A stretch of DNA of 64,000 bases, taken from assembly GCF_003711105.1 (NCBI RefSeq), contig NZ_CP023865.1:1896001-1960000 (forward strand), read 5' to 3'. The position numbers and the translations under genes are program-made. Of this stretch, positions 2,418-39,100 are shown piece after piece. The notes below the pieces were generated by a model, which was given only the letters and a program-made list of their open reading frames with translations, made no database searches and was not told where the DNA came from. Origin of the DNA: Actinoplanes teichomyceticus ATCC 31121 (lineage in GTDB: Bacteria > Actinomycetota > Actinomycetes > Mycobacteriales > Micromonosporaceae). The number at the start of each line of letters is the position of its first letter. Within the stretch, counting starts at the first letter, position 1.

Positions 2418-2573
2418 GCGCAGGGTTTCGCGGCGGCAAAACCGCGCAGCCTTTCGCGGCGGCAAAACCGCGCAGCCTTTCGCGGCGGCGAGGCCGCGCG
2501 GCGCTTCCCGGCGGCAAAACCGCGCAGCGCTTCCCGGCGGCGAGGCCGCTCAGCGCTTCGCGGCGGCCGCCTC
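2418..2573. repeat. 26-bp tandem array running out of the pgl 3' end
   Basis: Six head-to-tail 26-bp units at 2418, 2444, 2470, 2496, 2522 and 2548. On the minus strand a typical unit reads GCCGCCGCGAAAGGCTGCGC followed by GGTTTT or GGCCTC. The last unit is the pgl terminus itself, encoding AAAAKR and the stop. The other five are degenerate copies lying downstream of the stop. CGCGG and CCGCG within units can pair, so the RNA could fold as repeated small hairpins. Confidence 0.95.
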
Positions 2574-3278
2574 GTCGAGCAGGAAGAGCGTCCTGCGTAC
2601 GCCCTTCGCCCGTGCCGCCGGCAGATCGCCGCCGGCCAGCGCCGTCGCGATCGGGCCGGCCTTGTCCGGTCCGGCCGCGACCAGCCACACCTCGTCGGCG
2701 GCGCCGATCGTGGGCAGGGTCAGCGTGATCCGGGTGGGCGGGGGCTTCGGGCTGTTGAAGGTGGCCACCGCGGCGCCCTCCTCCTTGAGCACCGGGTGCC
2801 CGGGGAAGAGCGAGGCCACGTGCCCGTCCTCGCCGACGCCGAGCATCAGCACGTCGAAGCGGGGCAGGGCGCCGTCGCCGGCCGCGGTCAGCTCGGCGGC
2901 GTACCGGGCGGCGGCCGCGGTCGCGTCGTCGCCGTCCGGGCCGTCCGAGGCCGGCATGGCGTGCACCCGGGCCGGGTCCAGCGGCAGCGCGTCCAGCAGC
3001 GCGGCACGGGCCTGTGTCTCGTTGCGGTCCGGGTCGCCGGACGGCAGGAAGCGCTCGTCGCCCCACCACAGGTCCACCCGGGACCAGTCGATCGCGGCGG
3101 CGGCCGGCAGGTCCCGCAGCGTGCCCAGCACCTTGGCGGCCACCCGGCCGCCGGTCAGCACCACGCTCGCCGTACCGTGCACCGCCTGCGCGTCGATGAT
3201 CCGGATGGCGAGCCGTGCCGCCACCGTGGACGCCAGGATGTCGGCGTCCGCAACCACCACGACCACGGTCTCACTCAC
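2550..3278 (-). CDS. pgl: 6-phosphogluconolactonase
   Basis: Hydrolyses 6-phosphoglucono-lactone in the oxidative pentose phosphate pathway. The 242-residue product has LTGGRVAAKVL (41-51), WWGDERFLP (71-79) and GVGEDGHVASLFPGH (147-161), the substrate-binding and catalytic motifs of the glucosamine-6-phosphate isomerase/6PGL fold. GTG start with AAGGAGAG just upstream. It follows opcA in the zwf-opcA-pgl operon, separated by a 66-base gap holding a strong hairpin. Its last codons form the first unit of a 26-bp tandem array. Confidence 0.97.
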   Translation of the reverse strand: MSETVVVVVADADILASTVAARLAIRIIDAQAVHGTASVVLTGGRVAAKVLGTLRDLPAAAAIDWSRVDLWWGDERFLPSGDPDRNETQARAALLDALPLDPARVHAMPASDGPDGDDATAAAARYAAELTAAGDGALPRFDVLMLGVGEDGHVASLFPGHPVLKEEGAAVATFNSPKPPPTRITLTLPTIGAADEVWLVAAGPDKAGPIATALAGGDLPAARAKGVRRTLFLLDEAAAAKR

Positions 3279-3295
3279 TGCGCTCTCCTTGTCGA

Positions 3296-3322
3296 AGGGC
3301 CGCCCGCGTGGCGGACGGCCCT
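3296..3322 (-). terminator. Intercistronic hairpin between opcA and pgl
   Basis: AGGGCCG / CGGCCCT arms (7 bp), one mismatch, then CCGC / GCGG with a 3-base GTG loop. No T-tract. Placed between the opcA stop and the pgl Shine-Dalgarno, it could be a partial terminator or an RNA-processing site that sets the pgl level below opcA. Confidence 0.55.
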
Positions 3323-3344
3323 CTGTCAGTCGTTCCTCGTGTGC

Positions 3345-4343
3345 CTATCCGGCCAGCGCGTCGGACGTGCTGGCCGCCCGGGCCGCCAGCGCCGGGTCCT
3401 TCCAGACGTGCACCCGCGCCGCCGGTCGGTGCTCCAGACCGGTGGTCCCGGCCATGGCGGCCAGCGCCTCCGCGTAGATCTGGTCCGCGTCGAGCCGGCG
3501 CAGCTCCTCGGCGAGCTCGTCGCCGACCGGCCGCCTGGGCAGCGGCATGTACCGATCCTCCTGGCCGGTCCGGCTGAACAGCGCGGTGCCCTCCTCGCGG
3601 GTGACCCGCACGCATTCGCCGTTGGCGCACTGCAGCTCGACCGAGTGCATTCGCGGAGCCTTGTCGGTGTGCTCCAGCACCGGCTCGATGCCCAGCCGGG
3701 ACTTGAGCCAGCCGAGCATCAGCCAGGCGGTGGGGTCCCGCTCCGGCGCCACGATGCGTGCGCCGGTCACCTGCGCGTCGGTGGTGTCGAAGGCGCCGGC
3801 GACCAGGGTCCGCCACAGCGTGATCCGGGTCCAGGTCAGGTCGGTGTCGCCGGGCGCGTAGTCGACCGCCCGCTGCCGCAGCGCGGCCACCGGGTCCGGC
3901 GCCTGCGCGCTGTCGGTGATCCGGCGTTCCGCGACCACGCCCAGGAAGTCGTTGGCGATCATGTCCGGCGGCTCCTGGTGCCACCAGGTGACGACCGGGA
4001 CGTCCGGGGCGAGCAGCGGGATGACCACCGACTCGGCGTGCAGCGCGAGCCGGCCGTACATCCGCATCACGACCGCCTCGGCCGGGCCCAGCCGGCCGCC
4101 CACCACGATCTCCGCGTCCAGCCGGCTGCGGCCGTCCAGATCGGAGCGCACCACGATCAGCAGGCGGCACGGGTGCGCGGCGGCGGCGATGGTGGCGGCC
4201 GCCTCGGCCTCGCGGACCTTCTTCTCCTCGACCACCGCGATCAGGGTCAGCGCCAGGCCGGAGGCCACGCCCCCGGCGCTGCGGCGCTCCGCGGCGAGCG
4301 CCTTGACGACCTCGTTACCGGTGGTGTCCCACAGCCCGATCAT
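3345..4343 (-). CDS. opcA: Glucose-6-phosphate dehydrogenase assembly protein OpcA
   Basis: Cytosolic protein required for assembly or activity of actinobacterial and cyanobacterial glucose-6-phosphate dehydrogenase. About 332 residues, starting MIGLWDTTGNEVVKAL. The conserved OpcA core includes VTWWHQEPPD near the middle and the DLTWTRITLWR segment. The ATG start overlaps the zwf stop (ATGA at 4340-4343), implying translational coupling with zwf, its functional partner. An upstream in-frame start would intrude into zwf and is rejected. Confidence 0.95.
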   Translation of the reverse strand: MIGLWDTTGNEVVKALAAERRSAGGVASGLALTLIAVVEEKKVREAEAAATIAAAAHPCRLLIVVRSDLDGRSRLDAEIVVGGRLGPAEAVVMRMYGRLALHAESVVIPLLAPDVPVVTWWHQEPPDMIANDFLGVVAERRITDSAQAPDPVAALRQRAVDYAPGDTDLTWTRITLWRTLVAGAFDTTDAQVTGARIVAPERDPTAWLMLGWLKSRLGIEPVLEHTDKAPRMHSVELQCANGECVRVTREEGTALFSRTGQEDRYMPLPRRPVGDELAEELRRLDADQIYAEALAAMAGTTGLEHRPAARVHVWKDPALAARAASTSDALAG

Positions 4344-5857
4344 GCTCGCCTCCAGGCACGGCCCTCGCGCTCCAGCATCTCGTCCGAGGCCCGCGGGCCC
4401 CACTCACCGGCCCGGTAGGGTTCCGGCGTGGTGCCCGCCCAGGCGGCCTCCAGCGGGTCGATGACCCGCCACGACTGCTCCACCTCCGCGGCGTCCGGGA
4501 ACAGCGTGCGGTCGCCGATCAGGACGTCCAGGACGAGGCGTTCGTACGCCTCCGGGCTGGACTCGGTGAAGGCCTCGCCGTACTGGAAGTCCATCGCGAT
4601 GTCGCGGACCTCCATGGCCGTGCCGGGCACCTTGGAGCCGAACTTGAGGACCACGCCCTCGTCCGGCTGCACCCGGATGACCAGCTGGTTGTTGCCCAAC
4701 ATCTCCACGTCGGCCGGGTCGAACGGCAGGTGCGGCGCCTTCTTGAACATGATCGCGATCTCGGTCACCCGGCGCGGCATCCGCTTGCCGACCCGGACGT
4801 AGAACGGCACGCCCGCCCACCGCCGGTTCTGGATGCCGAGGCGGACCGCGACGTACGTCTCGGTCTTGGAGTCCCGCGGGATGTTCGCCTCTTCGAGGTA
4901 GCCGACCGCCCGCTCGCCGGCGACCCAGCCGGGAAGGTACTGCCCGCGCACCGAGCCGGCGGCGATGTCGGCCGGCAGGCTGATCGCCCTGAGGACCTTG
5001 AGCTTCTCGGCCCGCACCTCCTGCGGGTCGAAGCTGGTCGGCTCCTCCATCCCGACCAGCGCGAGCAGCTGCAGCAGATGGTTCTGGAGCACGTCACGGG
5101 CGGCGCCGGAGGCGTCGTAGAACGCGGCCCGGGTGCCGATGCCGACGTCCTCGGCCATGGTGATCTGCACCGAGTCGACGTACTTGGAGTTCCACACCGG
5201 CTCGAACAGGCTGTTCGCGAAGCGCAGGGCCAGGATGTTCTGGACCGTCTCCTTGCCGAGATAGTGGTCGATGCGGTAGACGTCGTCGGGGTTGAAGACG
5301 TCGTCCACCAGCTGGTTCAGCGCGATCGCGGTCTTGAGATCGTTGCCGAACGGCTTCTCCACCACCACCCGGCGCCAGCCGCCGGTCTTCGCGTTGTCCG
5401 CGAGCCCGGTGCGGTTGAGCTGGTTGAGCACCAGCGGGAACGCCGCCGGCGGGATGGAGAAGTAGAAGGCCGTGTTGCCCTGGATGCCGTTGCGCTCGCG
5501 CAGCTCGTCCAAGGTCTCGGCGAGTTTGTCGAAGTCGTTGTCGTCGTCGAACGAGCCGGGAACGAACTGGAACTGGCTGGAGAGCCGTTGCCAGACGTCC
5601 TCGCGCCAGGGCGTCCGGGCGCCCTTCTTGGCGGCCGCGTAGGCCAGCGACTCGAAGTCGCCGTCGCCCCAGTCGGCCCGGGCGAAGCCCACGACCACGA
5701 AGCCGGGGGGTAGCAGACCGCGGTTGGCCAGGTCGTACACGGCCGGGATGAGCTTTTTACGGGACAGGTCACCGGTGACCCCGAAAATGACCAGAGCGCA
5801 GGGCTCCGGGATCCGCGGGAGCCGACGGTCCTGTGCGGTGCGCAGCGGATTACCCAC
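4340..5857 (-). CDS. zwf: Glucose-6-phosphate 1-dehydrogenase
   Basis: First enzyme of the oxidative pentose phosphate pathway, making NADPH. The nucleotide-binding motif FGVTGDLSRKK is at about residues 25-35, the substrate/catalytic signature RIDHYLGKE near the middle, and the EKPFGNDL conserved Lys-Pro segment before it; about 505 residues, normal for the family. GTG at 5857 is preferred over an in-frame TTG at 5884: CAGGAT lies 6 bases before it, compatible either with a -10 of a leaderless mRNA or a weak Shine-Dalgarno, and the protein then begins MGNPLRTAQDRRLP. A perfect hairpin separates it from tal, so zwf probably has its own promoter. Confidence 0.95.
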   Translation of the reverse strand: MGNPLRTAQDRRLPRIPEPCALVIFGVTGDLSRKKLIPAVYDLANRGLLPPGFVVVGFARADWGDGDFESLAYAAAKKGARTPWREDVWQRLSSQFQFVPGSFDDDNDFDKLAETLDELRERNGIQGNTAFYFSIPPAAFPLVLNQLNRTGLADNAKTGGWRRVVVEKPFGNDLKTAIALNQLVDDVFNPDDVYRIDHYLGKETVQNILALRFANSLFEPVWNSKYVDSVQITMAEDVGIGTRAAFYDASGAARDVLQNHLLQLLALVGMEEPTSFDPQEVRAEKLKVLRAISLPADIAAGSVRGQYLPGWVAGERAVGYLEEANIPRDSKTETYVAVRLGIQNRRWAGVPFYVRVGKRMPRRVTEIAIMFKKAPHLPFDPADVEMLGNNQLVIRVQPDEGVVLKFGSKVPGTAMEVRDIAMDFQYGEAFTESSPEAYERLVLDVLIGDRTLFPDAAEVEQSWRVIDPLEAAWAGTTPEPYRAGEWGPRASDEMLEREGRAWRRA

Positions 5858-5888
5858 GTTGCCATCCTGCCAGTTTTTCGCCAATGGA

Positions 5889-5922
5889 GCGGCCTGTCGC
5901 GAAGGGTTCCGCGACAGGCCGC
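5889..5922 (-). terminator. Hairpin between tal and zwf
   Basis: Perfect 13-bp inverted repeat GCGGCCTGTCGCG / CGCGACAGGCCGC with an 8-base loop in the 78-base tal-zwf gap. No T-tract. Likely terminates tkt-tal transcription and insulates zwf-opcA-pgl. Confidence 0.7.
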
Positions 5923-5935
5923 GCAGGGGTCCGGA

Positions 5936-7072
5936 TCAGGCCGCGTCGCTGGGATTCGCGGCGCCGCCGGCGGCTGCCTTCAGCGACTTGGTGACGCCGT
6001 CCAGCAGGTCGTTCCAGCTCGCCTCGAACTTCTCGACGCCCTCCTCCTCGAGGACCTTGACGACGTCGTCGAAGTCGATGCCGACCGCCGCCAGGTCCGC
6101 GAAGACCTGCTTGGCGTGGCCGAAGTTGCCGGTGACGGTGTCGCCCCGCGTGGTGCCGTGGTCCTCGAACGCGAAGATCACCGACTCCGGCATGGTGTTC
6201 ACCGTGCCGGGCGCGATCAGCTCCTCGACGTAGATGGTGTCCGGGAAGTCCGGGTTCTTCGTCGAGGTGGAGGCCCACAGCGGCCGCTGCGGGTGCGCCC
6301 CGGCGTCGGCCAGCGCCTTCCACCGGTCGGTGCCGAAGACCTCGGTGTACGCCTCGTACGCCAGCCGGGCGTTGGCGATCGCGGCCTTGCCCTTGAGCGC
6401 CTTGGCCTCGTCGCTGCCGATCTTGTCGAGTCGCTTGTCGACCTCGGTGTCCACGCGCGAGACGAAGAACGACGCGACCGAGCCGATCTTGGACAGGTCG
6501 TGGCCGTTCGCCTTCGCCTGCTCCAGGCCGGCCAGGAACGCGTCCATGACCGCCCGGTAGCGCTCGAGCGAGAAGATCAGCGTCACATTCACGCTGATGC
6601 CGGCCGCGAGCACCTGGGTGATCGCGGGCAGGCCGGCCAGCGTCGCCGGGATCTTGATGAACAGGTTCGGCCGGTCGACCAGCCACCACAGCGTCTTCGC
6701 CTCGGCGACGGTCGACTCGGTCTCGTGCGCCTTGCGCGGGTCCACCTCGATGGAGACCCGGCCGTCCACGCCGTTGGAGGCGTCGTACGCCGGGCGCATC
6801 ACGTCCGCCGCCGCGCGCACGTCGGCGGCGGTCATCAGCCGGACCGCCTCCTCCACCGTGACGCGCTGGGCGGCCAGGTCGCGCAGCTGCTCGTCGTAGG
6901 CGTCCGCGTCGGCGAGCGCCTTCTGGAAGATGCTCGGGTTCGTGGTGACCCCGACCATGTGCTGTTCACGGCGCATCTTGTCCAGCGAACCGCTGGTCAG
7001 GCGTACCCGGGAGAGATCGTCGAGCCACACCGCCACACCCGCGGCGGAGAGCTCGGCCAGCCTGTCGGTCAT
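5936..7072 (-). CDS. tal: Transaldolase
   Basis: Transfers dihydroxyacetone units between sugar phosphates in the non-oxidative pentose phosphate pathway. 378 residues, the long actinobacterial type. The Schiff-base lysine is K140 in NLFIKIPAT, and the N-terminal [12 protein letters not shown] motif (41-52) is classic. ATG at 7072 is chosen because AGGAG lies 9 bases upstream; an in-frame TTG at 7081 abuts that site. It lies 15 bases downstream of the tkt stop, forming a tkt-tal unit. Confidence 0.97.
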
Positions 7073-7087
7073 TGACTTCAACTCCTG

Positions 7088-9202: not shown

Positions 9203-9464
9203 GTCTGTTGTGCTCCTCGGGCAGGATTGTGGAACCCTTTTCGGCTTGACCCTATCCAGTAGGTCTAAACGTCTGCGCAGCGAACGTCCCAGGCACATAC
9301 GCTGTGAGCGGACACACGGTTGAGGGGTGTGATGGCGTCCACCCGTGCTGGGTGCCCCGAGCAGCGGAGACGATGGCGCGTAGGCTGTCCGGGCGGCTCG
9401 GCCGGGTCGATGGTCACCCGGCGGCAGGTCGCGAGTTGGTCCAAATGCCGGAAGGTGGCTGTCC

Positions 9465-10427: not shown

Positions 10428-10652
10428 GATCGCCGTGAGTGATCCGGTAACGGGTAAGTCGCACAAGACGCCCGGATTGTGACCAGTGTCAACTACTGTC
10501 CGTCACTCAATAGTGGGATTCTGGCTACGCGGCAATTCGGGCGCAATTGGTGCAAAACTATGCCGCTGACGCCGAAACCTGCTGGTAACGAGAGTCACAG
10601 AAGGCCTCCGGAGTACCGCGGGAGGCGTCGCTGATTGCTTAGGCTGCGAGAC

Positions 10653-11824: not shown

Positions 11825-11930
11825 CCGGTTCGGTTCCCCCGCAGCCGCCGGTCACCTCTCCGGCGTCCGCCGGTCAGCGTTTCCGGCGTCCGGCGGTCAG
11901 CGTTTCCGGCGTCCGGCGGGCGTTCTTTTT

Positions 11931-12041
11931 GCTTGCGCGGGTTGTTCTTTCCGCTTGCGCGGGTTGTTCTTTCCGCTTGCGCGGGTTGTTCTTTCCGCTT
12001 CCGCGGGTTGCTCTTTCCCGCCTCCGCGGGTTGCTCCTCTG
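11931..12041. repeat. 22-bp tandem array
   Basis: Consecutive units at 11931, 11953 and 11975 are identical (GCTTGCGCGGGTTGTTCTTT plus CC). The unit at 11997 differs at two positions and the next at 12019 is degenerate. Related units beginning GCATCCGCGCGGGT recur at about 12055, 12101 and 12149. No spacers, so this is not a CRISPR. Confidence 0.9.
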
Positions 12042-12527
12042 GCATCCACTTACTGCATCCGCGCGGGTCGCTCTTTCCGGCGGCCGCGGGTCACCTTTTC
12101 GCATCCGCGCGGGTGGTTCTTTGCGGCGGCCGTAAGTCGCCCTTTTCAGCATCCGCGCGGGTCGTCCTCTTCCGTACCCGCCGTCGCCCTTTCCCGCAAC
12201 GACCGGATGCGCTTCATGCGCGCGTCTTTCCGCCCTCTCGGTGCGACTGTCCGGGTCCCATGCCCGCATGGTCCTGTCCGGTGGGTGCGACGTGAAGGGG
12301 ACTCCGTGCACGGGCCGCCCGGCTGATCCGGCGGCCCGGAGGATGGCGGCCCGGAGGATGGCGGCCCGCCGGCGCCTCCGCGAGCGTCGGGCTGGTGGTG
12401 GCGGTGGTATCCACAGTCCCTTGGCCACCGTCAGCGCCGGCTGGTCGATTGCGGCTGGTCGTGGCGGTGGTTTCGGCGCTTTCTCAGGCGCGGTGAGTGC
12501 CGGCCGGGCTGCGCTCCGAGTGGTAGG

Positions 12528-12746
12528 GGGTCGGCGCGGCCAGGCGCCCTGGAATGGAGCGCGGCGGGGGGAGTGCGCAGAGCGGGGTGGGGGCAGGGGC
12601 GGCGCGGGGTCGGGCGTGGCGGTGCCCGGCGGGTCGGCGCGGCCAGGCGCCCTGGAATGGAGCGCGGCGGGGGGAGTGCGCAGAGCGGGGTGGGGGCAGG
12701 GGCGGCGCGGGATCGGGCGTGGCGGTGCCCGGCGGGTCGGCGCGGC
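12528..12746. repeat. 103-bp near-perfect tandem duplication
   Basis: Copy 1 is 12528-12630 and copy 2 is 12631-12733. They differ only at 12609/12712 (G/A). A third copy begins at 12734 and breaks off after 13 bases. One mismatch in 103 bp implies a very recent duplication or ongoing homogenisation. Confidence 0.95.
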
Positions 12747-12817
12747 GCGGAGTGCGACAGGGCGGCGCCGGATGCGGTGCGGTGCACCGGGTCCGCGGGG
12801 CGGCCCCGGTGGCGCCC

Positions 12818-20571: not shown

Positions 20572-20670
20572 TCGCGTCTCACCGGAGCGGGCCGGTCGGG
20601 CGTACGCCCAACGGACGGCGCGCCACGAAGCGTGCCGTCCGCCGCCCCGGTCCGGTGGTACAAACCGGGC

Positions 20671-21426
20671 ATGACTCCGACTCCGCCCTTCCCCGAGCTG
20701 GTCACCCTGATCGAGGAACGGTCCGCGGCCCTGCGGGAGGCCGCCGTGCGGGCGCCCGATCCGGCCGCCCGGGTGCCCGGCTGCGCTGACTGGTCGCTGC
20801 GTGACCTGGTCGCCCATCTCGGCGAGGTGCAACGTTTCTGGGCGGTCGTGGTGACCGAGGCCGACCCGTCCGGGCCGCCGTCGCGGGAACGGCACGGCAG
20901 CACCGTCCCGCAGAGCGACCTGCTGCAGTGGTCCGCGGAGTCGACCCGGATGCTCGGCGCCGCGCTGCGCGCGGCCGGCCCGCAGTCGCCGTGCTGGGCG
21001 TGGTGGCCGGAGACGGCGGCGCCGCACACCGCCGGCGCGGTGGCCCGGCACCAGGTGCAGGAGGCGGCGGTGCACGCGTACGACGCCCTGGACGCCCTGG
21101 GCGAACCCGAGCCGCTGCCGGCCGCGGTGGCGGTCGACGGGGTGAGCGAGTTCCTCGGCACGGCCCTCGGCTCGCTCGGGGCGTGGCCGCACCGCCCGGC
21201 CCGGGTGATGTACCGGGCGATCGAGGGGCCGTCCTGGACGGTGGACCTCTCGCCCAGCGGCGCCACCGCCGACCCGGCGGCCAGCGGCGCGCCGGTCACC
21301 ACCGTCCACGGCACGGCCAGCGACCTGGTGTTGCTGCTGCACCGCCGGATCCCGCTGGACGCCGTCCGCATCGACGGCGACCGCGAGGTGGCCGCGCAGC
21401 TGCGCGAGTGGACCGGCACCGGTTGA
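20671..21426 (+). CDS. Maleylpyruvate isomerase-like (DinB-fold, mycothiol-dependent) protein
   Basis: 251-residue protein with the MDMPI N-terminal four-helix fold: VPGCADWSLRDLVAHLGEVQRFW supplies the first metal-binding histidine region and GAVARHQVQEAAVHAYDAL the others, followed by the C-terminal SCP2-like domain. Members use mycothiol or are of unknown function. ATG at 20671 has TACAAA ending 6 bases upstream and no Shine-Dalgarno (leaderless). Its last 13 codons form the first unit of a downstream tandem array. Confidence 0.88.
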   Translation: MTPTPPFPELVTLIEERSAALREAAVRAPDPAARVPGCADWSLRDLVAHLGEVQRFWAVVVTEADPSGPPSRERHGSTVPQSDLLQWSAESTRMLGAALRAAGPQSPCWAWWPETAAPHTAGAVARHQVQEAAVHAYDALDALGEPEPLPAAVAVDGVSEFLGTALGSLGAWPHRPARVMYRAIEGPSWTVDLSPSGATADPAASGAPVTTVHGTASDLVLLLHRRIPLDAVRIDGDREVAAQLREWTGTG

Positions 21427-21551
21427 GGTGGCCGCCGGGCTGCGGAGGAGGCCGGGACCGGTGGAGGTGGCCGCCGGGATGCGCGAAAAGACCGGGACCG
21501 GCCGGGACCGGTTGAGGTGGCCGCCCGGCCTCGTGCGGAGGCCGGGACCGG
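21385..21551. repeat. Tandem copies of the 3' end of the DinB-like gene
   Basis: The coding terminus 21385-21424 (encoding EVAAQLREWTGTG, then TGA at 21424-21426) begins GAGGTGGCCGC and ends ACCGGTT. Degenerate copies with the same beginning and end follow at 21425 (39 bp), 21464 (50 bp, with an inner GACCGGCCGG duplication) and 21514 (38 bp). Confidence 0.92.
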
Positions 21552-21609
21552 CCGGGAGCCGGGCGGGTCGGCGCCGCGGTTGATCGACGCCGACGCATAG
21601 GATCCCGGC

Positions 21610-25474: not shown

Positions 25475-26074
25475 ATGAGCGCGTCCTTCCTGGCCGGTGT
25501 GGTGGCCGGCTACGGGATCGCGGTTCCGGTCGGGGCCATCGGCGCGCTGATCGCCGGGCTCAGCGCCCGCACGTCGCTGCGGGTCGGCGCGGCGGCCGGG
25601 CTCGGCGCGGCCACCGCCGACGGGATCTACGCCGGCGCCGCGGTCGCCGGCGGCGCGGTGATCGCCGGGGTGATCGCACCGATCGCCGAGCCGCTGCGCT
25701 GGGCCGGGGCGGTGGTGCTGCTGGCGCTGGCCGGCTGGACCGCCTGGGGCGCGATCCGGCGGCCGCACACCGGGGCGCGCTCCGAACGGCCGGTCACAGC
25801 GATCCGGGCGTACGCCGCGATCCTCGGACTCACCCTGCTCAACCCGGCCACCGTGCTCTACTTCGCCGCGCTGGTCCTCGGCAGCGGCGGCGCCGGAGGC
25901 GGCGTCTGGTTCGTGCTCGGCGCCTTCCTCGCCTCGGCGAGCTGGCAGCTGCTGATCGCCGGCGGCGGTTCGCTGATCGGCCGCCTGCTGATCGGCCCGC
26001 GGGGGCGTCTCCTCACCGCGCTGACCTCCAGCGCGGTGATCGCGGTCCTCGCGCTGCGTCTGCTCCTGACCTGA
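25475..26074 (+). CDS. LysE-family amino acid exporter
   Basis: 199-residue membrane protein with about six hydrophobic segments, starting SASFLAGVVAGYGIAVPVGAIGALI. GYGIAVPVGAI and LTLLNPATVLYFAAL correspond to the family's conserved N-terminal PGP-like and mid-protein NP motifs. Exports an amino acid or related small molecule of unknown identity. No obvious Shine-Dalgarno. Confidence 0.88.
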   Translation: MSASFLAGVVAGYGIAVPVGAIGALIAGLSARTSLRVGAAAGLGAATADGIYAGAAVAGGAVIAGVIAPIAEPLRWAGAVVLLALAGWTAWGAIRRPHTGARSERPVTAIRAYAAILGLTLLNPATVLYFAALVLGSGGAGGGVWFVLGAFLASASWQLLIAGGGSLIGRLLIGPRGRLLTALTSSAVIAVLALRLLLT

Positions 26075-26829: not shown

Positions 26830-26913
26830 GCCCGGCCGGCGGGTGCGGGGAACGGCTCCGGCCGCCGTCCCGCGCCAGGTGCGGGTCGGCGGCCGGATGT
26901 TCGGTGGGCGAGA

Positions 26914-26990
26914 CCGGTCGGTCGCCCTGCTTGACCGCGCCGGTGGGTCGCCTGCTCGACCGCGCCGGTCAGTCGCCCTCCTTGACCGCG
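26914..26990. repeat. 25-26-bp tandem array at the zinc metallopeptidase 3' end
   Basis: Units at 26914-26939, 26940-26964 and 26965-26990. The last contains the final codons and stop of the metallopeptidase (minus strand, AVKEGD then TGA). The other two are downstream copies of that terminus. Confidence 0.92.
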
Positions 26991-27904
26991 CCGGGCGCGA
27001 ACGTGTCGCATTTCGCCGGGTCACCGGTGTCGTATCCGACGCGGAACCACTTCTGCCGGTCCGCGGAGGTGCCGTGGGTGAACTCGGCCGGGTTGACGCT
27101 GCCCCCGTTGCGCTGCTGGAGCGTGTCGTCGCCGATCTGCCCGGCGGTCTGGATGCCCTCCTGGATGTCCGAGTCGCTGAGGCTCGTGAAAATCTTGTTG
27201 CCCTTGGCGTCGGTGGTGCCGGTCGCGCCCCTGGCCCAGGCTCCGGCGTAGCAGTCGGCCTGCAGCTCCAGCTTGACCGACTCCAGGTTCGCCTGGTCCG
27301 GGTTGGTGTTCTGGGCCTGCCGCATCTTCGCCTCGGTGCCGAGCAGATCCTGCACGTGGTGACCGTACTCGTGGGCGAGCACGTACGGCTGCGCGAACTC
27401 GCCGGGCGCGCCGAGCTCCCTGGCCAGCTGCTGGTAGAACGTCAGGTCGATGTAGACCTTGTTGTCCGCCGGGCAGTAGAACGGGCCGACGCCGGAGTCG
27501 GCGGCGCCGCAGCCGGTGCTGACCCGGTTGGCGAAGACCCTCGTGGTGGCCTTCTCGTACGGCTTGCCGAACGCCTGGGGCAGCTCGGTGGCCCAGTACG
27601 CCTGGATCGAGTTGATGTAGAGGACGTTGCGGCAGTCCAGCTGCTCGGTGGCGTTCTGCTGCTTGCACTCCTGTTCCAGCTTCGTGTTGTCGGCGCTGGA
27701 GGAGCCGCCGCCGCCACCGCCCAGGTTGTTGATGCCGAAGTAGCCCCCGACGAGCAGGAGCAGCACGGTGACGATGATGCCGGAGAGCCCGCCGCCGCCG
27801 ATCGGGAGGCCGCCGAAGCCGCCTCCGCCGAAGCCGCCTCCGCCCGAGCCGCGCACGTCCTCGACCTGACTGGTGTCGATCTCGGCTTTCTCATTGAGTT
27901 CCAT
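26969..27904 (-). CDS. Neutral zinc metallopeptidase (YpfJ family), membrane-anchored
   Basis: 311 residues. A Gly-rich cytoplasmic N-terminus (20-40), one membrane segment (about 41-57), a Gly/Ser linker, then the extracytoplasmic catalytic domain with H178-E179-x-x-H182 in LAHEYGHHVQ and the downstream glutamate region ESVKLELQADCYAGAWA. The four cysteines near 80, 91, 132 and 144 may form disulfides. Physiological substrates are unknown. Divergent from the ABC-F gene. Confidence 0.92.
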   Translation of the reverse strand: MELNEKAEIDTSQVEDVRGSGGGGFGGGGFGGLPIGGGGLSGIIVTVLLLLVGGYFGINNLGGGGGGSSSADNTKLEQECKQQNATEQLDCRNVLYINSIQAYWATELPQAFGKPYEKATTRVFANRVSTGCGAADSGVGPFYCPADNKVYIDLTFYQQLARELGAPGEFAQPYVLAHEYGHHVQDLLGTEAKMRQAQNTNPDQANLESVKLELQADCYAGAWARGATGTTDAKGNKIFTSLSDSDIQEGIQTAGQIGDDTLQQRNGGSVNPAEFTHGTSADRQKWFRVGYDTGDPAKCDTFAPGAVKEGD

Positions 27905-28070: not shown

Positions 28071-28105
28071 CTGAGTCAGCCCGATCACCGAGAGCGAGAA
28101 CCGTC

Positions 28106-29710
<1,605 letters not shown>

Positions 29711-31184: not shown

Positions 31185-31341
31185 CACGCCGGAGCCGGCC
31201 GGCTCCCGTACGGGGGAGCGGGGCTGATCGGCTCCGGGCGGTAAGGACCGTCCGCGGAATAGCGGCCTCACCTCCCGGGTTGTCGTACCCACGCGGCAGA
31301 CTGTGTGCCGCGGCGTCGAACGGCACCCGGGAGGTGGCGGA

Positions 31342-33273: not shown

Positions 33274-33482
33274 CCGGCCTCCTGATCTTCGCGGTGCTGT
33301 TCACGGCGATGCTGTACGCGTTCGTGCGGTTCGCCGGGTGGGTCCGGCGCAAGGGGGTCGGCGGCGGGCTCGTGGGGCCGATCGACGAGGCCTGGCACCC
33401 GTCCGCCGACCGGTTCCGGCGCGAGACGGCGGTCCACGAGCAGCGGGTCATGCCGCCCCGGCCCGGTGACGAGCGGTCCTGA
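33270..33482 (+). CDS. Small single-pass membrane protein
   Basis: 70 residues: hydrophobic segment GLLIFAVLFTAMLYAFVRFAG (roughly 3-22), a basic stretch, then a charged cytoplasmic tail ending PPRPGDERS. GTG start overlaps the ABC exporter stop (GTGA), so it is probably a co-expressed accessory protein of that transporter. No recognised family with certainty. Confidence 0.75.
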   Translation: MTGLLIFAVLFTAMLYAFVRFAGWVRRKGVGGGLVGPIDEAWHPSADRFRRETAVHEQRVMPPRPGDERS

Positions 33483-33548
33483 ACGGCGGTCCATCGTGGC
33501 CGGTCCGGTGTTCGCGCGGTCCAGCGATTCGCGTCCGGGTCGGTTCGC

Positions 33549-33718
33549 ACATCGAGCGGTTCGGTGCGCAGGGTCGAGTGGTCCGGGTCGGTTTGCCGGG
33601 TCGAGCGGTTCGGGTCCGGGTTCGGTTCGCCGGGTCGAGTGGTCTCGGTTCGCTTCGCCGGGTCGAGCGGTTCGCGTCCCGGGTGCGTTCGCGCATCGAG
33701 CGGTTCGGTGCGGCGGGA
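33549..33718. repeat. Degenerate repeat array with TCGAGCGGT core
   Basis: Six copies of TCGAG(C/T)GGT at irregular 26-33-base spacing, each followed by CGG/TTCG-rich sequence, in the 289-base gap between the small membrane protein and mug. Non-coding: reading frames give Arg/Ser/Gly strings. Confidence 0.8.
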
Positions 33719-33771
33719 ACCGTGGTGTGCGCGGTTCGGGGTGGGCGGGGCCGGGGGCCGGTGTCGCGGAT

Positions 33772-34392
33772 TCAGTGCCGGGGCGGCCGGGCGGCGGCCT
33801 CGCGCAGGGCACGGAACTCGCGGATCAGGTCGGGTAGCTGGAAGTGGGCGTTCAGTCCGCTGGGGTTGGGCAGCACCCAGACCGGGACACCGCCGACGGT
33901 GTCCGGCTGCCGGCCGATCCGGGCCTTCGGCCGCCCGAACGCGGTGCGATAGGCGGTCACCCCGAGCACGGCCAGGAACCGGGGCCGGTGATGGCGTACC
34001 AACTCGGCCAGGATCGCGCCGCCGGCGACCAGCTCGTCCGGGCTGAGCTCGTCGGCGCGGGCCGTGGCCCGCGCGACGACGTTGGTGATGCCCAGACCGA
34101 GAGCGGGCAGCAGCTGCTGCTCGGAAGGGTGCAGCAGGCGGTCGGTGAAGGCCGCGCCGTGCAGGGTGGGCCAGAACCGGTTGCCGGGACGGGCGAAGTG
34201 GTGGCCGGTCGCGGCCGAGTACAGGCTCGGGTTGATCCCGGAGAAGAGCACCCGCAGGCCCGGGCCGACCAGGTCGGGGATGGTGCGCCCGGCGGCGGCA
34301 GCGACCTGGTCGGCGGACGGCCGCACGAACCCCGGGGCTGCCGCCGCGGATCCCGGTCCGCCGGTGGGCGCTGCCTTCCGGCGCGGCGTCAC
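33772..34392 (-). CDS. mug: G/U mismatch-specific DNA glycosylase (Mug)
   Basis: Removes uracil or thymine opposite guanine in DNA. 206 residues with the family motifs FSGINPSLYSAATGHHFARPGNRFWP and LPNPSGLNAHF, including the active-site asparagine of GINPS. An N-terminal tail of about 35 residues precedes the domain. GTG at 34392 overlaps the stop of the SDR gene (GTGA), so the two are cotranscribed. Confidence 0.93.
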   Translation of the reverse strand: MTPRRKAAPTGGPGSAAAAPGFVRPSADQVAAAAGRTIPDLVGPGLRVLFSGINPSLYSAATGHHFARPGNRFWPTLHGAAFTDRLLHPSEQQLLPALGLGITNVVARATARADELSPDELVAGGAILAELVRHHRPRFLAVLGVTAYRTAFGRPKARIGRQPDTVGGVPVWVLPNPSGLNAHFQLPDLIREFRALREAAARPPRH

Positions 34393-35150
34393 AGGCTGCG
34401 CAGGGCGCCACCGTCGACCGGGACGGCCAACCCGGTGAGGTAGCTCGCCGCGGGGGACAGCAGGAACGCCGCCACCCGGCCGAACTCGGCGGGCTCGCCG
34501 AGCCGCCCCATCGGGACCGAGGCGGCCGCCTCCGCCGCCGCGGTCGCCGCATCGCCGCTGGCCTGGAACAGCTCCCGGTTGCGGTCCGTCATGATCCGGC
34601 CGGGCAGCAGGCTGAGCACCCGCACGCCGCGGGGGGCGTACTCGTCGGCCATGTCCTTGGCGACCATCGCCAGGCCCGGCCGCAGCCCGTTGGACAGGCC
34701 CAGCCCGGCGAGCGGCGACTTGGCCGAGGTGGACAGCACCAGCGCGATCGCCCCGCCCTCGGGCAGCGCGGACGCGAACGTGCGGGCCGCGCGCACCGAG
34801 CCGAGGAAGACCGTCTCGAACGCGTCCCGCCACTGCTCGTCGCTCAGGCCGGCCGAGGTGCCGCGGGGCGGGCCGCCGACCGAGACCAGCGCGCCGTCCA
34901 GCCGGCCGAAGCGCTCCGTCGCGGTGTCCACCAGCTCGCGCGGCGTGCCCGGGTCGGCCAGGTCGGCGGTCACCCCGGCGGCGTGTTCCGGGCCGCCCAG
35001 CTCGGCGACCGCATCGGCCACATTGCGCTCGTCCCGCGAGGAGATCACCACCCGGGCGCCGTCGGCGACGAGCGCCTGCGCGGTGGCGAAGCCCAGCCCG
35101 CGCGAGGCGCCGGTGAGGATGAAGACGCGATCAGCCAGCCCCAGATCCAT
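34389..35150 (-). CDS. Atypical SDR-family oxidoreductase
   Basis: 253 residues. The NAD(P)-binding TGASRGLG motif (about 11-18) and VTADLADPG are normal and the C-terminal SYLTGLAVPVDGGALRSL is typical of FabG-like SDRs. The catalytic region, however, reads LSTSAKSPLAGLGLSNGLRPGLAMVAKDMADE: the usual Tyr-x3-Lys is not at its normal position, where the sequence is LSNGLRPG. This belongs to the SDR subgroup with an SN-x-LRP motif. Function unknown. ATG at 35150 is preferred over one three codons upstream. Confidence 0.85.
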   Translation of the reverse strand: MDLGLADRVFILTGASRGLGFATAQALVADGARVVISSRDERNVADAVAELGGPEHAAGVTADLADPGTPRELVDTATERFGRLDGALVSVGGPPRGTSAGLSDEQWRDAFETVFLGSVRAARTFASALPEGGAIALVLSTSAKSPLAGLGLSNGLRPGLAMVAKDMADEYAPRGVRVLSLLPGRIMTDRNRELFQASGDAATAAAEAAASVPMGRLGEPAEFGRVAAFLLSPAASYLTGLAVPVDGGALRSL

Positions 35151-35207
35151 GCGCACCATCTTGGCAGAGGATCGGCGGGGTGCGCGCCGGCGGGCGGGAC
35201 GCCTCAA

Positions 35208-35440
35208 GCGCCGGGATGCCTCGTGCGCCAGGATGCCCCGTGCACCGGGATGCCTCGTGCGCCGGATGCTTCATGCACCGGGATGCCCCGTGCACCGGGA
35301 TGCTTCGTGCGCCGGATGCCTCGTGCGCCGGGATGCTTCGTGCGCCGGATGCCTCGTGCGCCGGGATGCTTCGTGCGCCGGATGCCTCGTGCGCCGGGAT
35401 GCTTCGTGCGCCGGGTGCCTCGTGCGCCGGGATGCCCGGC
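35208..35440. repeat. 16-17-bp tandem array, 33-bp higher order
   Basis: Fourteen consecutive units of GC(G/A)CCGG(G)ATGC(C/T)TCGT. From about 35306 to 35407 they alternate as a 17-bp form (GCGCCGGGATGCTTCGT) and a 16-bp form (GCGCCGGATGCCTCGT), giving a 33-bp period. Lies wholly between the SDR and TetR genes. No spacers and no cas genes. Confidence 0.95.
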
Positions 35441-35551
35441 CCGGGTGGCGGCCGATCATCCACATCGGGCAGGAGCTGCCGGGGCGTACTCGGGCGGGGA
35501 GGTCGGCCGGGCAGGGAGGCCGGACGAGCGGCGCGGCGGGTACGGCGAGGG

Positions 35552-36130
35552 TCAGTGGCGGCGGACCGCGTCCTCCACCAGGTCCAGGACGTGGGCGAGG
35601 TCACCGGGCGGGCGGCCGGTGGCCAGGTGCAGGACCAGACCGTCGTACGCCAGCTCGAGGAACTGGGTCAGCACGTCGACCGGCACGTCCGGGCGCAGCA
35701 CGCCGGCGTCGCGCTGCCGCTGGAGGCGTTCCCGGGTGGCGTCGGCGATGGCGGCCGACCGTTGCGCCCAGCGCTTGGCGAACGCCGGGTCGGTGCGCAG
35801 CCGGTGGGAGACCTCCAGCTGGGTGCCGAGCCAGCCGGCGGTGTCGCCGTCACTGGTGCCGGCCCGCTCCAGCAGGTCGCGCATCACCTGCACCAGGCCG
35901 TTGCGGGCGACCGTCTCCACCATGGTGGCGGCGTCGTCCTCGGCGACCGCGAGGAACAGTGATTCCTTGTCGCGATAATGGTGGAAAATCGCGCCGCGGG
36001 ACATGCCGGTGGCCTCTTCGAGACGCCGGACCGTGGCGCCCTCGTAGCCGAACCGTGCGAAACAGCCGCGGGCCGCCGTGAGGATCTCGTGGCGGCGGGC
36101 TTCGAGCTGGTCCTGGCTTACCCTGGGCAC
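35552..36130 (-). CDS. acnR: TetR-family regulator, AcnR-like
   Basis: 192 residues with an N-terminal TetR HTH (about 10-58: ARRHEILTAARGCFARFGYEGATVRRLEEATGMSRGAIFHHYRDKESLF). This N-terminus closely resembles AcnR, the repressor of aconitase in Corynebacterium, and its mycobacterial homologue beside acn. Here it is about 3 kb from acnA with four genes between. GTG start. A perfect 12-bp palindrome lies 39 bases upstream, and a related sequence lies upstream of acnA. Confidence 0.85.
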   Translation of the reverse strand: MPRVSQDQLEARRHEILTAARGCFARFGYEGATVRRLEEATGMSRGAIFHHYRDKESLFLAVAEDDAATMVETVARNGLVQVMRDLLERAGTSDGDTAGWLGTQLEVSHRLRTDPAFAKRWAQRSAAIADATRERLQRQRDAGVLRPDVPVDVLTQFLELAYDGLVLHLATGRPPGDLAHVLDLVEDAVRRH

Positions 36131-36168
36131 GCCGCTGATCGTGTCACGTGCCCCCGCAGTCTTGCAAT

Positions 36169-36180
36169 CCGTACGTACGG
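36169..36180. promoter_or_regulatory. Palindrome upstream of acnR
   Basis: CCGTACGTACGG, a perfect 12-bp palindrome adjacent to a minus-strand TTGCAA (-35-like). Position and symmetry fit a TetR-family operator for autoregulation. Nine of its bases recur as CCGTACGTC upstream of acnA. Confidence 0.6.
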
Positions 36181-36245
36181 CTTCCTAAGCTGCCGGGTCG
36201 CTCGAACGGATGATGCGAATTTCGTCAAGGGTTCTGCGCATTGTT

Positions 36246-36262
36246 AACAGTCCTGGACTGTT
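36246..36262. promoter_or_regulatory. 17-bp perfect inverted repeat before the HAD gene
   Basis: AACAGTCC-T-GGACTGTT. It overlaps the place expected for the -35 of the promoter whose -10 is TAAAGT (36283-36288), 6 bases from the GTG. It therefore looks like a repressor operator rather than a terminator. Confidence 0.55.
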
Positions 36263-36294
36263 CGCTCCGGCCGCCGCTCACGTAAAGTGCCCGG

Positions 36295-36942
36295 GTGCCT
36301 CTAGTCTTCCTCGCTCTGGACGACACCCTGCTCGACCGCAGCGGCGCCTTCCGGCTGTGGGCTAAAGGTTTCCTCGACGAGATCGGCGCGCCCCAGGACG
36401 ATCTCGACTGGCTGGTCGCGGTGGACGCCGACGGCCTGACCTCCCGGTGGGACCTCGCCGACCTGATCCGTGACCGCTACCGGCTACGAGTGCCGTCCAT
36501 CGATCTGGTCGACGAGCTCTACGAGGGGCCCCTCGCCCACGAGCGGCTCGACCCGCTGGTGGGGTGCGCGCTGGAGATCGCGGCCGACGCGGGACTGGTT
36601 CCGGTGGTGGTCACCAACGGGGCGGCGGAGCAGTGCGAGGGCCGGATCCGGCGTACCGGGCTGGATCGTCATGTCGCCGACTGGGTGATCTCCGAGCAGG
36701 CCGGGGTGAGCAAGCCGAACCCGCGGATCTTCGCGCTGGCCGCCCAGCGGGTCCGGATGCGGCTGGCCGGCGCCTGGGTGGTCGGCGACAGCCCGGAGGC
36801 GGACATCGGTGGCGCGGCCGCGCTCGGTCTGCCCAGCGTGTGGCTGCACCGCGGGCGGGAGTGGATGGACACCCGGTTCGCCCCGACCAGGGTGGTCGGC
36901 AACGTGATCCAGGGGCTCTCCGCGATCATGGCGGCCCGCTGA
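36295..36942 (+). CDS. HAD-superfamily protein lacking the nucleophilic aspartate
   Basis: 215 residues with a HAD Rossmann core and a helical cap. Motif II is VVTNG, motif III the lysine in AGVSKPNPRIF and motif IV VGDSPEADIGGAAALG, all intact. Motif I reads FLALDDTLLD, so the position normally held by the nucleophilic Asp (DxDxT) is Ala, while the general-acid Asp remains. Such a protein should not form the aspartyl-phosphate; it may bind phosphate compounds without turnover. Leaderless GTG start (TAAAGT 6 bases upstream). Confidence 0.85.
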   Translation: MPLVFLALDDTLLDRSGAFRLWAKGFLDEIGAPQDDLDWLVAVDADGLTSRWDLADLIRDRYRLRVPSIDLVDELYEGPLAHERLDPLVGCALEIAADAGLVPVVVTNGAAEQCEGRIRRTGLDRHVADWVISEQAGVSKPNPRIFALAAQRVRMRLAGAWVVGDSPEADIGGAAALGLPSVWLHRGREWMDTRFAPTRVVGNVIQGLSAIMAAR

Positions 36943-37009
36943 CGGCGTACCCGATAAATCGGTTGCGTGGCGGGCGGGGGTGCGAAAGAGTCGTCGCGCA
37001 ACGCGCTGT

Positions 37010-37027
37010 CCGGCCCGTGCGGGCCGG
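37010..37027 (+). terminator. Hairpin between the HAD and RIO genes
   Basis: CCGGCCC-GTGC-GGGCCGG, a 7-bp perfect GC stem with a tetraloop, about 70 bases after the HAD stop and 95 bases before the RIO kinase start. Confidence 0.5.
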
Positions 37028-37121
37028 TGCGAGAGAGAAGGGGGTGGCCCGAAATGGCTGTCTTTGTGATGCCTGCTGTCTCGGCTTCCCCGCAAAATTC
37101 TTTCTCCGAGGAGACCCTCCA

Positions 37122-38039
37122 GTGCGAGAGCACGACTCCTTCGGCCCGGCGACCATGCGCCGTGGCCGACGCAAGTTCGACGACGACGAGCCCGATTTCC
37201 TGAAGCGCGGCCGGCCCGAGCCGGCCCTCCAGGAGGATCCGGACCTGCCCGAGGCCGGTGACCGGTGGTCCAGCTGGGACGGCGCGCTGCACGGTCCGCA
37301 GCCGCGCCCGGAGTGGGTGCGCACCGAGTACGGCGCCGTGGACACCGAACTGGGTGTCCTGAAAACCGGCAAGGAGGCGGACGTCTTCCTGGTCCGCCGC
37401 TGGCTCCCGGCCACCGGGCAGGTCAGCATGCTCGCCGCGAAACGGTATCGCGACGGCGAGCACCGGTTGTTCCACCGCGACGCCGGCTATCTGGAGGGAC
37501 GGCGGGTGCGCCGGTCCCGGGAGATGCGGGCGATGACCAACCGGACCGCGTTCGGCAAGCAGATGATCGCCGGTCAGTGGGCGGCGGCGGAGTTCGACGC
37601 GCTCGGCCGGCTCTGGCAGATCGGGCAGGAGAGCGGGCTGGTCCGCGTGCCGTACCCGGTGCAGCTGGTCGGCACCGAGGTGATGCTGGAGTTCATCGGC
37701 GACTGGGAGACCGGTGAGGCCGCGCCCCGGCTGGCGCAGGTGCGCTCCGGCGCCGACGAGCTCGAGCAGCTGTGGCGGCAGATGACCGACGCGCTGTCGG
37801 TGCTGGCCCGTTCGCAGGTGGCGCACGGGGACCTGTCGCCGTACAACATGCTGGTGCACGACGGCCGCCTGGTCCTGATCGACCTGCCGCAGATCGTGGA
37901 CGTGGTGGCGAACCCGCGCGGTGCCGAGTTCATCGCCCGGGACGTGCAGAACGTGGCGAGCTGGTTCCGTGCCCGTGGGCTGCCGATCGACGCCGCGGAG
38001 CTGACCGACCGGCTGCTGTTCGAGGCCGGCCTGCGCTGA
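37122..38039 (+). CDS. RIO-type serine/threonine protein kinase
   Basis: 305-residue cytosolic RIO1-like kinase. After an acidic/basic N-terminal tail, the nucleotide-binding lysine is in LKTGKEADVFLVRR / AAKRYRDG, the catalytic loop is HGDLSPYNMLVHDGRL and the metal-binding loop LIDLPQ. Both loops are complete, so activity is expected. RIO kinases act in ribosome biogenesis in archaea and eukaryotes; the bacterial role is unclear. GTG at 37122 is chosen because GAGGAG lies 8 bases upstream. Confidence 0.92.
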   Translation: MREHDSFGPATMRRGRRKFDDDEPDFLKRGRPEPALQEDPDLPEAGDRWSSWDGALHGPQPRPEWVRTEYGAVDTELGVLKTGKEADVFLVRRWLPATGQVSMLAAKRYRDGEHRLFHRDAGYLEGRRVRRSREMRAMTNRTAFGKQMIAGQWAAAEFDALGRLWQIGQESGLVRVPYPVQLVGTEVMLEFIGDWETGEAAPRLAQVRSGADELEQLWRQMTDALSVLARSQVAHGDLSPYNMLVHDGRLVLIDLPQIVDVVANPRGAEFIARDVQNVASWFRARGLPIDAAELTDRLLFEAGLR

Positions 38040-38107
38040 TCCGGTCCCGCGCCTGCCGGCCGGCGGCGGCCGTTCCTCCCGGAGCGCCCCCGCCGGCCGG
38101 TGGGTCG

Positions 38108-38190
38108 TGTCCGGGTCGGCGGTGGCGGCGGGCGGGTGGCTCGTGTCCGCGCCCGGCGGTGGCGGCGGGGCGGGTGGGCCGTGTCCGGGC
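38108..38190. repeat. Two-and-a-half copies of a 36-38-bp GC-rich unit
   Basis: Units starting TGTCCG at 38108, 38144 and 38182 share the GGCGGTGGCGGCGGG core. In the gap between the RIO kinase and DUF2630 genes, which otherwise holds nothing. Confidence 0.7.
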
Positions 38191-38243
38191 CGGCAGCCGT
38201 GGCCCGGCCCGCGGCCGCCGCGCGGACGGCGGCCGCGCCCGGG

Positions 38244-38489
38244 TCACTGCAGGTAGTTCTCCACCTCGCTGACGCTGTGGGCCTGCTCGGTGTCCGGGTC
38301 GTGCCCGGCGTCACGCGCCGCCCGGCGCCGGCGCAGCAGGTCCCAGCACTGGTCCAGGGACTCCTCGAGATCCTTGAGGCGGGCATGCTCCTCGGTGGAG
38401 GAGATCTCGCCCCGGCCCAGCTGCTGGCGCAGCCGGTGCTCCTCCTCGACCAAGCCGCTGATCCGGCTCAGCACACTGTTGTCATCCAT
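38244..38489 (-). CDS. DUF2630 family protein
   Basis: 81-residue acidic, probably coiled-coil protein. ISGLVEEEHRLRQQLGRGEISSTEEHARLKDLEESLDQCWDLLRRRRAARDAGHDP is the DUF2630 consensus. Function unknown. TAAGCT ends 6 bases before the ATG and there is no Shine-Dalgarno (leaderless). Divergent from the 135-residue hypothetical gene. Confidence 0.92.
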   Translation of the reverse strand: MDDNSVLSRISGLVEEEHRLRQQLGRGEISSTEEHARLKDLEESLDQCWDLLRRRRAARDAGHDPDTEQAHSVSEVENYLQ

Positions 38490-38575
38490 CCCCGAAGCTT
38501 ATTCACCACGGGGACGTGGGCAGGGCATCCCCGGACGTGTCCGATGTCGCGCCGGTCACGCTCTACGGTGAACGT

Positions 38576-38983
38576 ATGCCCGAGACGCCCGAGGAACTGC
38601 GCCCGGTCCTGCGCGACGTGCACGCCGCGTCCCCGGTGCGGGTGGTGGTGCGCGAACCGTCGGGCGACCATCCGTACGACGCCGGGACGGTGTGGCTGCA
38701 CGTCGCCGGCACACTCGGCAGCATCGGATTCCGGCCGGCGCCCGGCACCGCCCTGCCGGACCGGGTGTGCGCGGCCGCCGACCAGCTGCACGACTGGATC
38801 CTGGAGTGCCTGCCGGAGCTCGGCTTCCCGGCGGTGTGGCCGGAGTGCCCCGAGCACCCGGCCACGCATCCGTTGCGGGTCGGCATGACCGGCGACGGGC
38901 CGGTGTGGCGGTGCCCGCGCTCGGCGGCCGTCCACGCCCGGGTCGGCGAGCTGGGTCGCGTGCCGTTCCGGGAGGCCGGGTAG
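38576..38983 (+). CDS. Hypothetical protein
   Basis: 135-residue soluble protein, not recognised. It has several cysteines (C-A-A-A-D, ECLPEL, ECPEHP, WRCPRS); WPECPEHPATHPLRV-15-WRCPRS has the spacing of a small metal-binding site. TACGGT ends 6 bases before the ATG. Its last codons (REAG and stop) open a tandem array of gene-end copies. Confidence 0.75.
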   Translation: MPETPEELRPVLRDVHAASPVRVVVREPSGDHPYDAGTVWLHVAGTLGSIGFRPAPGTALPDRVCAAADQLHDWILECLPELGFPAVWPECPEHPATHPLRVGMTGDGPVWRCPRSAAVHARVGELGRVPFREAG

Positions 38984-39100
38984 TCGGGCCTGCGGGCCGT
39001 GGGCGGTGGCGGGAGGCCGGGTAGTCGGGCCTGCGGGTCGCGGTGGGAGGCCGGGTGGTAGGGCTGTGGTTCGCGGCGGGAGGCCGGGTAGGACCCGTGG
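38970..39100. repeat. Tandem copies of the 3' end of the 135-residue hypothetical gene
   Basis: Core GGGAGGCCGGGTAGTCGGGC occurs in the coding end at 38970 (the TAG is the stop at 38981-38983) and again at 39011; degenerate forms start at 39045 and 39078. Unit lengths are 41, 34 and 33 bp. Confidence 0.92.

Follow-up and report, generated by a model that had tools for sequence, protein, structure and literature searches.

Tandem copies of gene tails in Actinoplanes teichomyceticus probably mark where short intergenic duplications can survive

The 64 kb window analysed here, part of the 8.29 Mb single-contig genome of Actinoplanes teichomyceticus, contains four genes whose ends recur just downstream as degenerate tandem units. 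Such arrays are most probably (a probability of about 0.8) intergenic minisatellites, the product of slippage-type duplication that survives where neither a protein nor a promoter is broken. The following findings support this: at three of the four genes the tail is the source of the copies; overlaps with stop codons occur as often as uniform placement predicts; arrays are depleted at gene starts; they turn over between species in the window region; duplication junctions show homology; and the genome yields no MutS_V match.

Results

Tandem copies of gene tails in the window

The first-pass annotation had reported the four recurring gene ends, and arrays located with Tandem Repeats Finder (TRF), together with copies of tail words, bear this out at all four. 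The gene pgl (2550–3278, minus strand; 6-phosphogluconolactonase by open reading frame call and Pfam PF01182; stop codon 2550–2552) converges on a glyoxalase-type gene (2006–2413, plus strand), and the 136-bp space between them is filled by an array of about six 26-bp copies at 2412–2567 (26 bp x 5.8; reported by TRF as 2416–2567 with period 26 and as 2412–2567 with period 78). By copy comparison, the last 18 bases of pgl lie within its first unit. The second gene, annotated as DinB-like, is of the MDMPI/DinB_2 type and belongs to the mycothiol-dependent isomerase family (20632–21426, plus strand, start as called; PF11716, PF07398, PF12867; stop 21424–21426). An array of 39–50 bp units at 21385–21562 begins 42 bases within it; TRF reports two parts, 21385–21501 and 21450–21562, with periods of 39 and 50 bp, and the units match poorly in fixed register (8 and 6 of 24; the spacing varies) but reach a TRF score of 150. 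At the third, a putative neutral zinc metallopeptidase gene (26969–27904, minus strand; PF04228; stop 26969–26971) with its best named matches in Plantactinospora, Actinoplanes and Micromonospora, a 26-bp array at 26914–26994 (26 bp x 3.2) adds two copies of the tail past the stop, one well preserved (23/25 bases) and the other matching at 15/25 in fixed register. The fourth gene encodes a 135-residue hypothetical protein with no Pfam match (38576–38983, plus strand, start as called; stop 38981–38983). Its array of 33–41 bp units (38971–39093) combines a TRF array that begins 10 bases beyond the stop (38993–39091, 33 bp x 3.0) with a 15-base tail word including TAG that was located by eye and occurs four times, twice exactly (at 38971, 39012, 39046 and 39079, with 15, 15, 13 and 13 of 15 bases matching).

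Comparison with relatives shows that at pgl, the MDMPI-type gene and the metallopeptidase gene the gene tail is the source of the units. The pgl end FLLDEAAASKR is kept in relative loci L235 and L240, and the MDMPI-type end DGDREVAAQIRDWTGD in L204, all of them without an array at the stop; the metallopeptidase end CDTFAPGAV..GD is kept in genomes G010, G016 and G023, which again have no array at the stop and carry other arrays 51 to 138 bp beyond it. As the tails are conserved in relatives that lack the copies, they are older than the copies downstream of them. Among 26 sequences tried, a relative of the 135-residue gene was obtained from G023 alone; the match runs to residue 126, the ends do not align, and no source polarity was obtained from this sole relative.

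Empty sites in relatives further identify two of the arrays as insertions of copies past the stop. The spacer between pgl and the glyoxalase-type gene, 136 bp in A. teichomyceticus, measures 55 bp in L234 and 4 bp in L235 and is a 4-bp overlap in L242, with no array in these relatives; four more loci that were tried had no glyoxalase-type neighbour. Downstream of the metallopeptidase gene lies a 38-bp terminator-like hairpin (26859–26896, minus strand; minimum free energy −34.3 kcal/mol with one more base), which is strongly conserved, being identical in A. teichomyceticus, G010, G016 and G023 although the relatives' metallopeptidase proteins are only 82–85% identical. It stands 72 bases beyond the stop in A. 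teichomyceticus versus 19, 22 and 21 in G010, G016 and G023 (counted on the sequences), a gap of about two units. The pgl and metallopeptidase arrays are thus copies inserted just beyond the stop, in the latter case ahead of the retained hairpin.

The same kind of event has occurred elsewhere. In L229 the MDMPI-type gene, and in L246 pgl, has its own, different tail copied (arrays from −28 and −25), and these are events independent of those at the same genes in A. teichomyceticus. The cleanest and youngest-looking example is a RIO-domain gene of G010 (L264): its own tail, TGA included, is present in six identical copies of 29 bp, which are absent from A. teichomyceticus, G016 and G023. In relatives, stop-spanning arrays were found at 1/29 MDMPI-type genes and 1/28 pgl genes (L245, with N in its 3' part, was left out), so that neither gene is a clear hot spot. 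Separately, the gene at window positions 25475–26074 (plus strand) has no such array in A. teichomyceticus, and its relatives in L267, L125 and L137 (taken as the same gene from similar C-termini, by eye) carry stop-spanning arrays of different units; this is a possible recurrent site.

In all, 16 TRF arrays in the window are at least half intergenic, and four of these overlap a stop by TRF. Among the four is an array at 5898–5945 absent from the first-pass annotation (22 bp, 2.2 copies), which overlaps the last 10 bases of the gene at 5936–7072 (minus strand). Once the 135-residue case is extended by eye, the stop-overlapping arrays number five; the other 11 touch no stop by TRF. Two further places in the window are rich in repeats. 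The convergent intergenic region at 11825–12817, about 1 kb long, holds five TRF arrays, one of which, a 103-bp unit in 2.1 copies with a 99% match, is evidently recent. The gene call at 51512–53485 (minus strand) crosses 30-bp and 15-bp arrays (51573–52104) and is either an over-called open reading frame or a protein with a repeat-built C-terminal part.

Placement of arrays across the genome

Placement was assessed in a 2.464 Mb sample (4000 bases of it N) made up of the window and 120 stretches, each 20 kb long, in which 2226 genes were called with a home-made codon-usage caller. TRF gave 262 intergenic arrays in the sample (period quartiles 22, 30 and 40 bp, periods below 15 having been left out beforehand). 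When the 1214 intergenic regions of at least 60 bp were searched alone, 258 arrays with a period of at least 15 bp and a score of at least 60 were found versus 13 in Markov-resampled sequence. Density was highest in convergent regions (1.46 arrays per kb), followed by co-directional (0.78) and divergent ones (0.31), and showed no strong trend along the chromosome (27–48 arrays in each sixth of the sample).

Array edges extended at least 4 bp into coding sequence at 45 of 322 3' edges and at 2 of 202 5' edges, so that, at 45 edges per 2226 called genes, an array enters the 3' end of about 2% of genes. These counts were compared with a null in which each array was collapsed to one unit, whose start could fall uniformly anywhere between the point one period inside a gene and the corresponding point in the following gene. 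Under this null, the 45 stop overlaps compare with 47.6±5.3 expected, and the two start overlaps with 17.2±3.8; across six TRF settings stop overlaps never rose above expectation, and the result at starts agreed. With stops at the uniform expectation and starts far below it, the asymmetry is one of depletion at starts: gene ends are not targeted, and gene starts are cleared of arrays. The proposal that a common process is aimed at gene 3' ends, for which enrichment at stop codons over random placement had been put forward as the test, therefore fails in A. teichomyceticus. An earlier null, which allowed positions within the intergenic region only, gave a seeming enrichment (75 edges under 10 bp versus 46.4) and was dropped because a unit may harmlessly begin up to one period inside a gene. 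When coding overlap was allowed at stops only, 26 overlaps were seen in convergent regions versus 34.4±3.8 expected, and 19 in co-directional regions versus 18.0±3.5.

Coverage profiles show the same shape. In convergent regions, coverage stood at 2.1% and 4.5% over the final 30 bases of the genes and rose smoothly to 29% at 100–150 bp beyond the stop, with no peak at the stop itself; the far bins are inflated since arrays lengthen spacers. Coverage was strongly lowered from the start codon to about 60–100 bp upstream, and in co-directional regions amounted to 0.5–1.2% in the interval that begins 30 bp upstream of the start and ends 15 bp within the gene. Where both ends were over 200 bp away, it was of the same order in convergent (10.8%), co-directional (13.1%) and divergent (7.6%) regions.

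Turnover between species

The window from about 19 kb onward was compared with G010, G016 and G023, using one genome per species and judging unit identity by period and consensus; two spacers whose flanking genes were non-adjacent or not found in the relatives were excluded. No unit was shared in any of the 14 comparisons of adjacent orthologous spacers (0/14), and five of the 14 orthologous spacers held a different array (six with a borderline case in G010, seen by TRF on a single strand). Thus, in the window region arrays turn over between species, which makes selection for a particular array unlikely.

Origin of the duplications

Reading frame and junctions bear on how the arrays arose. The period is divisible by three in 268/291 fully coding arrays versus 13/43 stop-spanning ones: coding arrays keep frame and stop-spanning arrays do not, as would follow if the first copy alone were important. 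At 22 isolated, exact two-copy intergenic duplications, junction extension was at most 1 bp in three (4/26 with coding ones included) compared with 3103/4000 simulated duplications. This homology beyond chance suggests that the duplications were seeded by short direct repeats.

A MutS_V profile search of the A. teichomyceticus genome gave no match, the search being positive in 11/14 control genomes, and NucS_C is present. According to the review PMC8228993, short indels are left uncorrected by NucS; this blindness would presumably extend to loops of 15–60 bp. Tandem duplications of about that size would then arise in this very GC-rich DNA by slippage or by recombination between short direct repeats, and selection would filter them, removing those that break the frame inside genes and those that break promoters and ribosome sites just upstream of starts. 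Where a duplication spans a stop, the first copy and its stop would stay, the protein would be unchanged, and the downstream copies would be free to drift. With the first copy and its stop in place, gene tails copied in tandem appear as the edge of the tolerated zone. Replication slippage, already suggested by the first-pass annotation, is the likeliest origin; we infer that it supplies the mutational step, that deficient repair is its cause and that the arrays have no function.

Several observations weigh against this account. In A. teichomyceticus, co-directional array edges at −4 to +10 of the stop number 16 versus 7.7±2.6 expected, and the unexplained G+C content of 60-base array ends is 0.805 (n = 151) versus 0.707 in array-free 3' flanks (n = 220). 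In relatives, where gene calling relied on the A. teichomyceticus-trained model, stop overlaps reach 16 versus 10.5±2.4 expected in other Micromonosporaceae (29 loci, 53 arrays; P = 0.021) and 7 versus 4.7±1.3 in random stretches of G016 and G029 (12 loci, 24 arrays; P = 0.074); these 23 overlaps include one at a weak, low-scoring 36-aa call and one at a gene that the end of a stretch truncates. Start depletion is non-significant in other Micromonosporaceae (4 versus 5.6), G016/G029 (1 versus 2.8) and Streptomycetaceae (1 versus 3.3). Junction extension, as measured, can include remnants of older third copies. Finally, array density varies among 80 named actinobacterial loci (L146, L150 and L195 assigned to no group), a non-random sample in that all surround the metallopeptidase gene: it is 1.00 per kb in Actinoplanes (three loci), 0.56 in Micromonospora, 0.50 in Streptomycetaceae, 0.41 in other Micromonosporaceae and 0.20 in Pseudonocardiales and Streptosporangiales. 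The lower values in Streptomycetaceae and in Pseudonocardiales/Streptosporangiales indicate that MutS/NucS state alone may not set the rate. In favour of the account, no intergenic array was found at the same thresholds in 200 kb each of Escherichia coli (29.6 kb intergenic) and Sinorhizobium meliloti pSymB (28.4 kb intergenic), versus 0.77 per kb in A. teichomyceticus; these controls are less GC-rich (0.51 and 0.62), so that GC content and repair are not separated.

Alternative explanations

The mild excess in the small samples of relatives leaves room for a weak preference for stop overlap. We regard as doubtful, yet as the least doubtful of the alternatives, that besides slippage a weak but real preference exists for duplicating DNA around stops in MutS-less, GC-rich actinobacteria, by which tails would recurrently and independently become new 3' untranslated sequence and later, possibly, hairpins or padding between convergent genes.

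A mutational process aimed at gene 3' ends, in which transcription–replication collisions, R-loops or forks stalled at terminators amplify the tails, is unlikely. It would account for the independent origin of stop-spanning arrays at orthologous genes, the stop-overlap excess in some relatives and the co-directional edge excess near the stop, but it is at odds with the absence of any stop-overlap excess among the 262 arrays or in Streptomycetaceae (39 loci, 53 arrays; 9 versus 9.7±2.0), and the frequencies in relatives at pgl and the MDMPI-type gene lie near the A. teichomyceticus background. G-skew, taken as a sign of R-loops, averaged −0.013 over 142 co-directional arrays, with no mean bias and hence no consistent R-loop-like strand bias; only its spread was wider (|G-skew| above 0.3 in 15% of arrays versus 1%).

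That the arrays are kept as transcript 3'-end structures or terminator replacements, as had also been suggested, is very improbable. The DinB-type array (21415–21562) folds better than its shuffles (z −3.11) and, by eye, 3/6 pgl units on the pgl strand consist of a short GC stem followed by TTTT, but the other three window arrays fold like shuffles (z −0.43, 0.07 and −0.14). More generally, array ends in 3' flanks showed no stronger hairpins (mean fold z −0.52, n = 151) than array-free flanks (−0.75, n = 220; P = 0.64) or coding arrays (−0.47, n = 214). A consensus scan of 2380–2600 found no terminator-like site, although it needs at least five T and is blind to the TTTT units. Moreover, the conserved hairpin survives downstream of the metallopeptidase array, and no unit is shared between species.

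An assembly or gene-calling artefact might be feared, given a home-made gene caller and the assembly-prone nature of tandem repeats, but is scarcely credible, since the copies are degenerate, the same kind of arrays occurs in other genomes and, among the 45 genes with a stop overlap, 43 measure at least 300 bp and 44 score at least 30. Least plausible of all is a dispersed, possibly mobile family akin to mycobacterial interspersed repetitive units (MIRUs) or repetitive extragenic palindromic (REP) elements inserting at gene ends, which the stop-adjacent position recalls, as it does the TAACTGA repeats discussed below: unit clustering led us to reject it, because 242/262 array units have no similar unit elsewhere (80% identity over 90% of the unit), as the first-pass annotation had held, and units instead match the adjacent gene tail.

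Discussion

The arrays most resemble bacterial minisatellites, or variable number tandem repeats (VNTRs), which likewise have tandem units of about 15–60 bp, are in many cases intergenic, have locus-specific sequences and differ between close relatives; the head-to-tail units seen here fall in the range of roughly 10–100 bp that defines minisatellites. They differ in being very dense (0.77 arrays per kb of intergenic DNA) and in that some include a gene tail, and they were compared between species only. Enterobacterial REP elements and bacterial interspersed mosaic elements (BIMEs) share with the arrays an extragenic position and a tendency to recur in close succession, but they belong to a dispersed family of palindromes, which the units here do not form. 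MIRUs, described as positioned next to stop codons, also form one dispersed family, in contrast to the locus-private units here, which in stop-spanning arrays correspond to the tail of the neighbouring gene. REP/BIME units are mentioned in PMC2884548. Mycobacterial MIRU-VNTR and exact tandem repeat (ETR) loci are alike in being intergenic tandem repeats of an actinobacterium with empty sites in relatives: the rnc-fpg1 space measures 279–358 bp in the tuberculosis complex, where it contains repeats, and 1–54 bp in other mycobacteria, among the rows consulted in PMC2734929. The TAACTGA direct repeats of marine Beggiatoaceae, as described in PMC4679880, are a fixed heptamer at many loci that mostly faces start codons and in some cases overlaps stops; here, the units are longer and differ from locus to locus, and the arrays keep clear of starts. 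Hairpin-cluster intrinsic terminators also lie close downstream of stops and may comprise more than one hairpin (PMC8355165). Intrinsic terminators have hairpins stabler than base composition predicts; one of the four window arrays exceeds its shuffles, 3' flanks with arrays show no hairpin excess over those without, and units are not shared between species. No description of private gene-tail arrays was found in the literature searched, a weak negative as most subscription journals were outside reach; the 'intergenic tandem repeats' of PMC7176366 and PMC4849082 are polyketide and peptide synthetase modules and unrelated.

Taken together, the pattern is true and recurrent, and is explained by where tandem duplications can survive; it is ordinary in kind and notable in density. 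Of the earlier interpretation, the tail as source (at three of four genes), the unrelated units and independent recurrence (A. teichomyceticus, L229, L246 and the G010 RIO gene) stand, and 3'-end targeting and the terminator role do not. What had been claimed as a new gene-end element is thereby removed and replaced by a testable picture in which short tandem duplications steadily remodel the intergenic DNA of an actinobacterium lacking a MutS_V match, and the stop codon is the point beyond which selection becomes indifferent. The arrays at about 2% of gene 3' ends make 3' regions longer and could lead annotation and terminator prediction astray, and the shadow that start codons cast in the distribution of arrays provides a simple map of promoter constraint on sequence.

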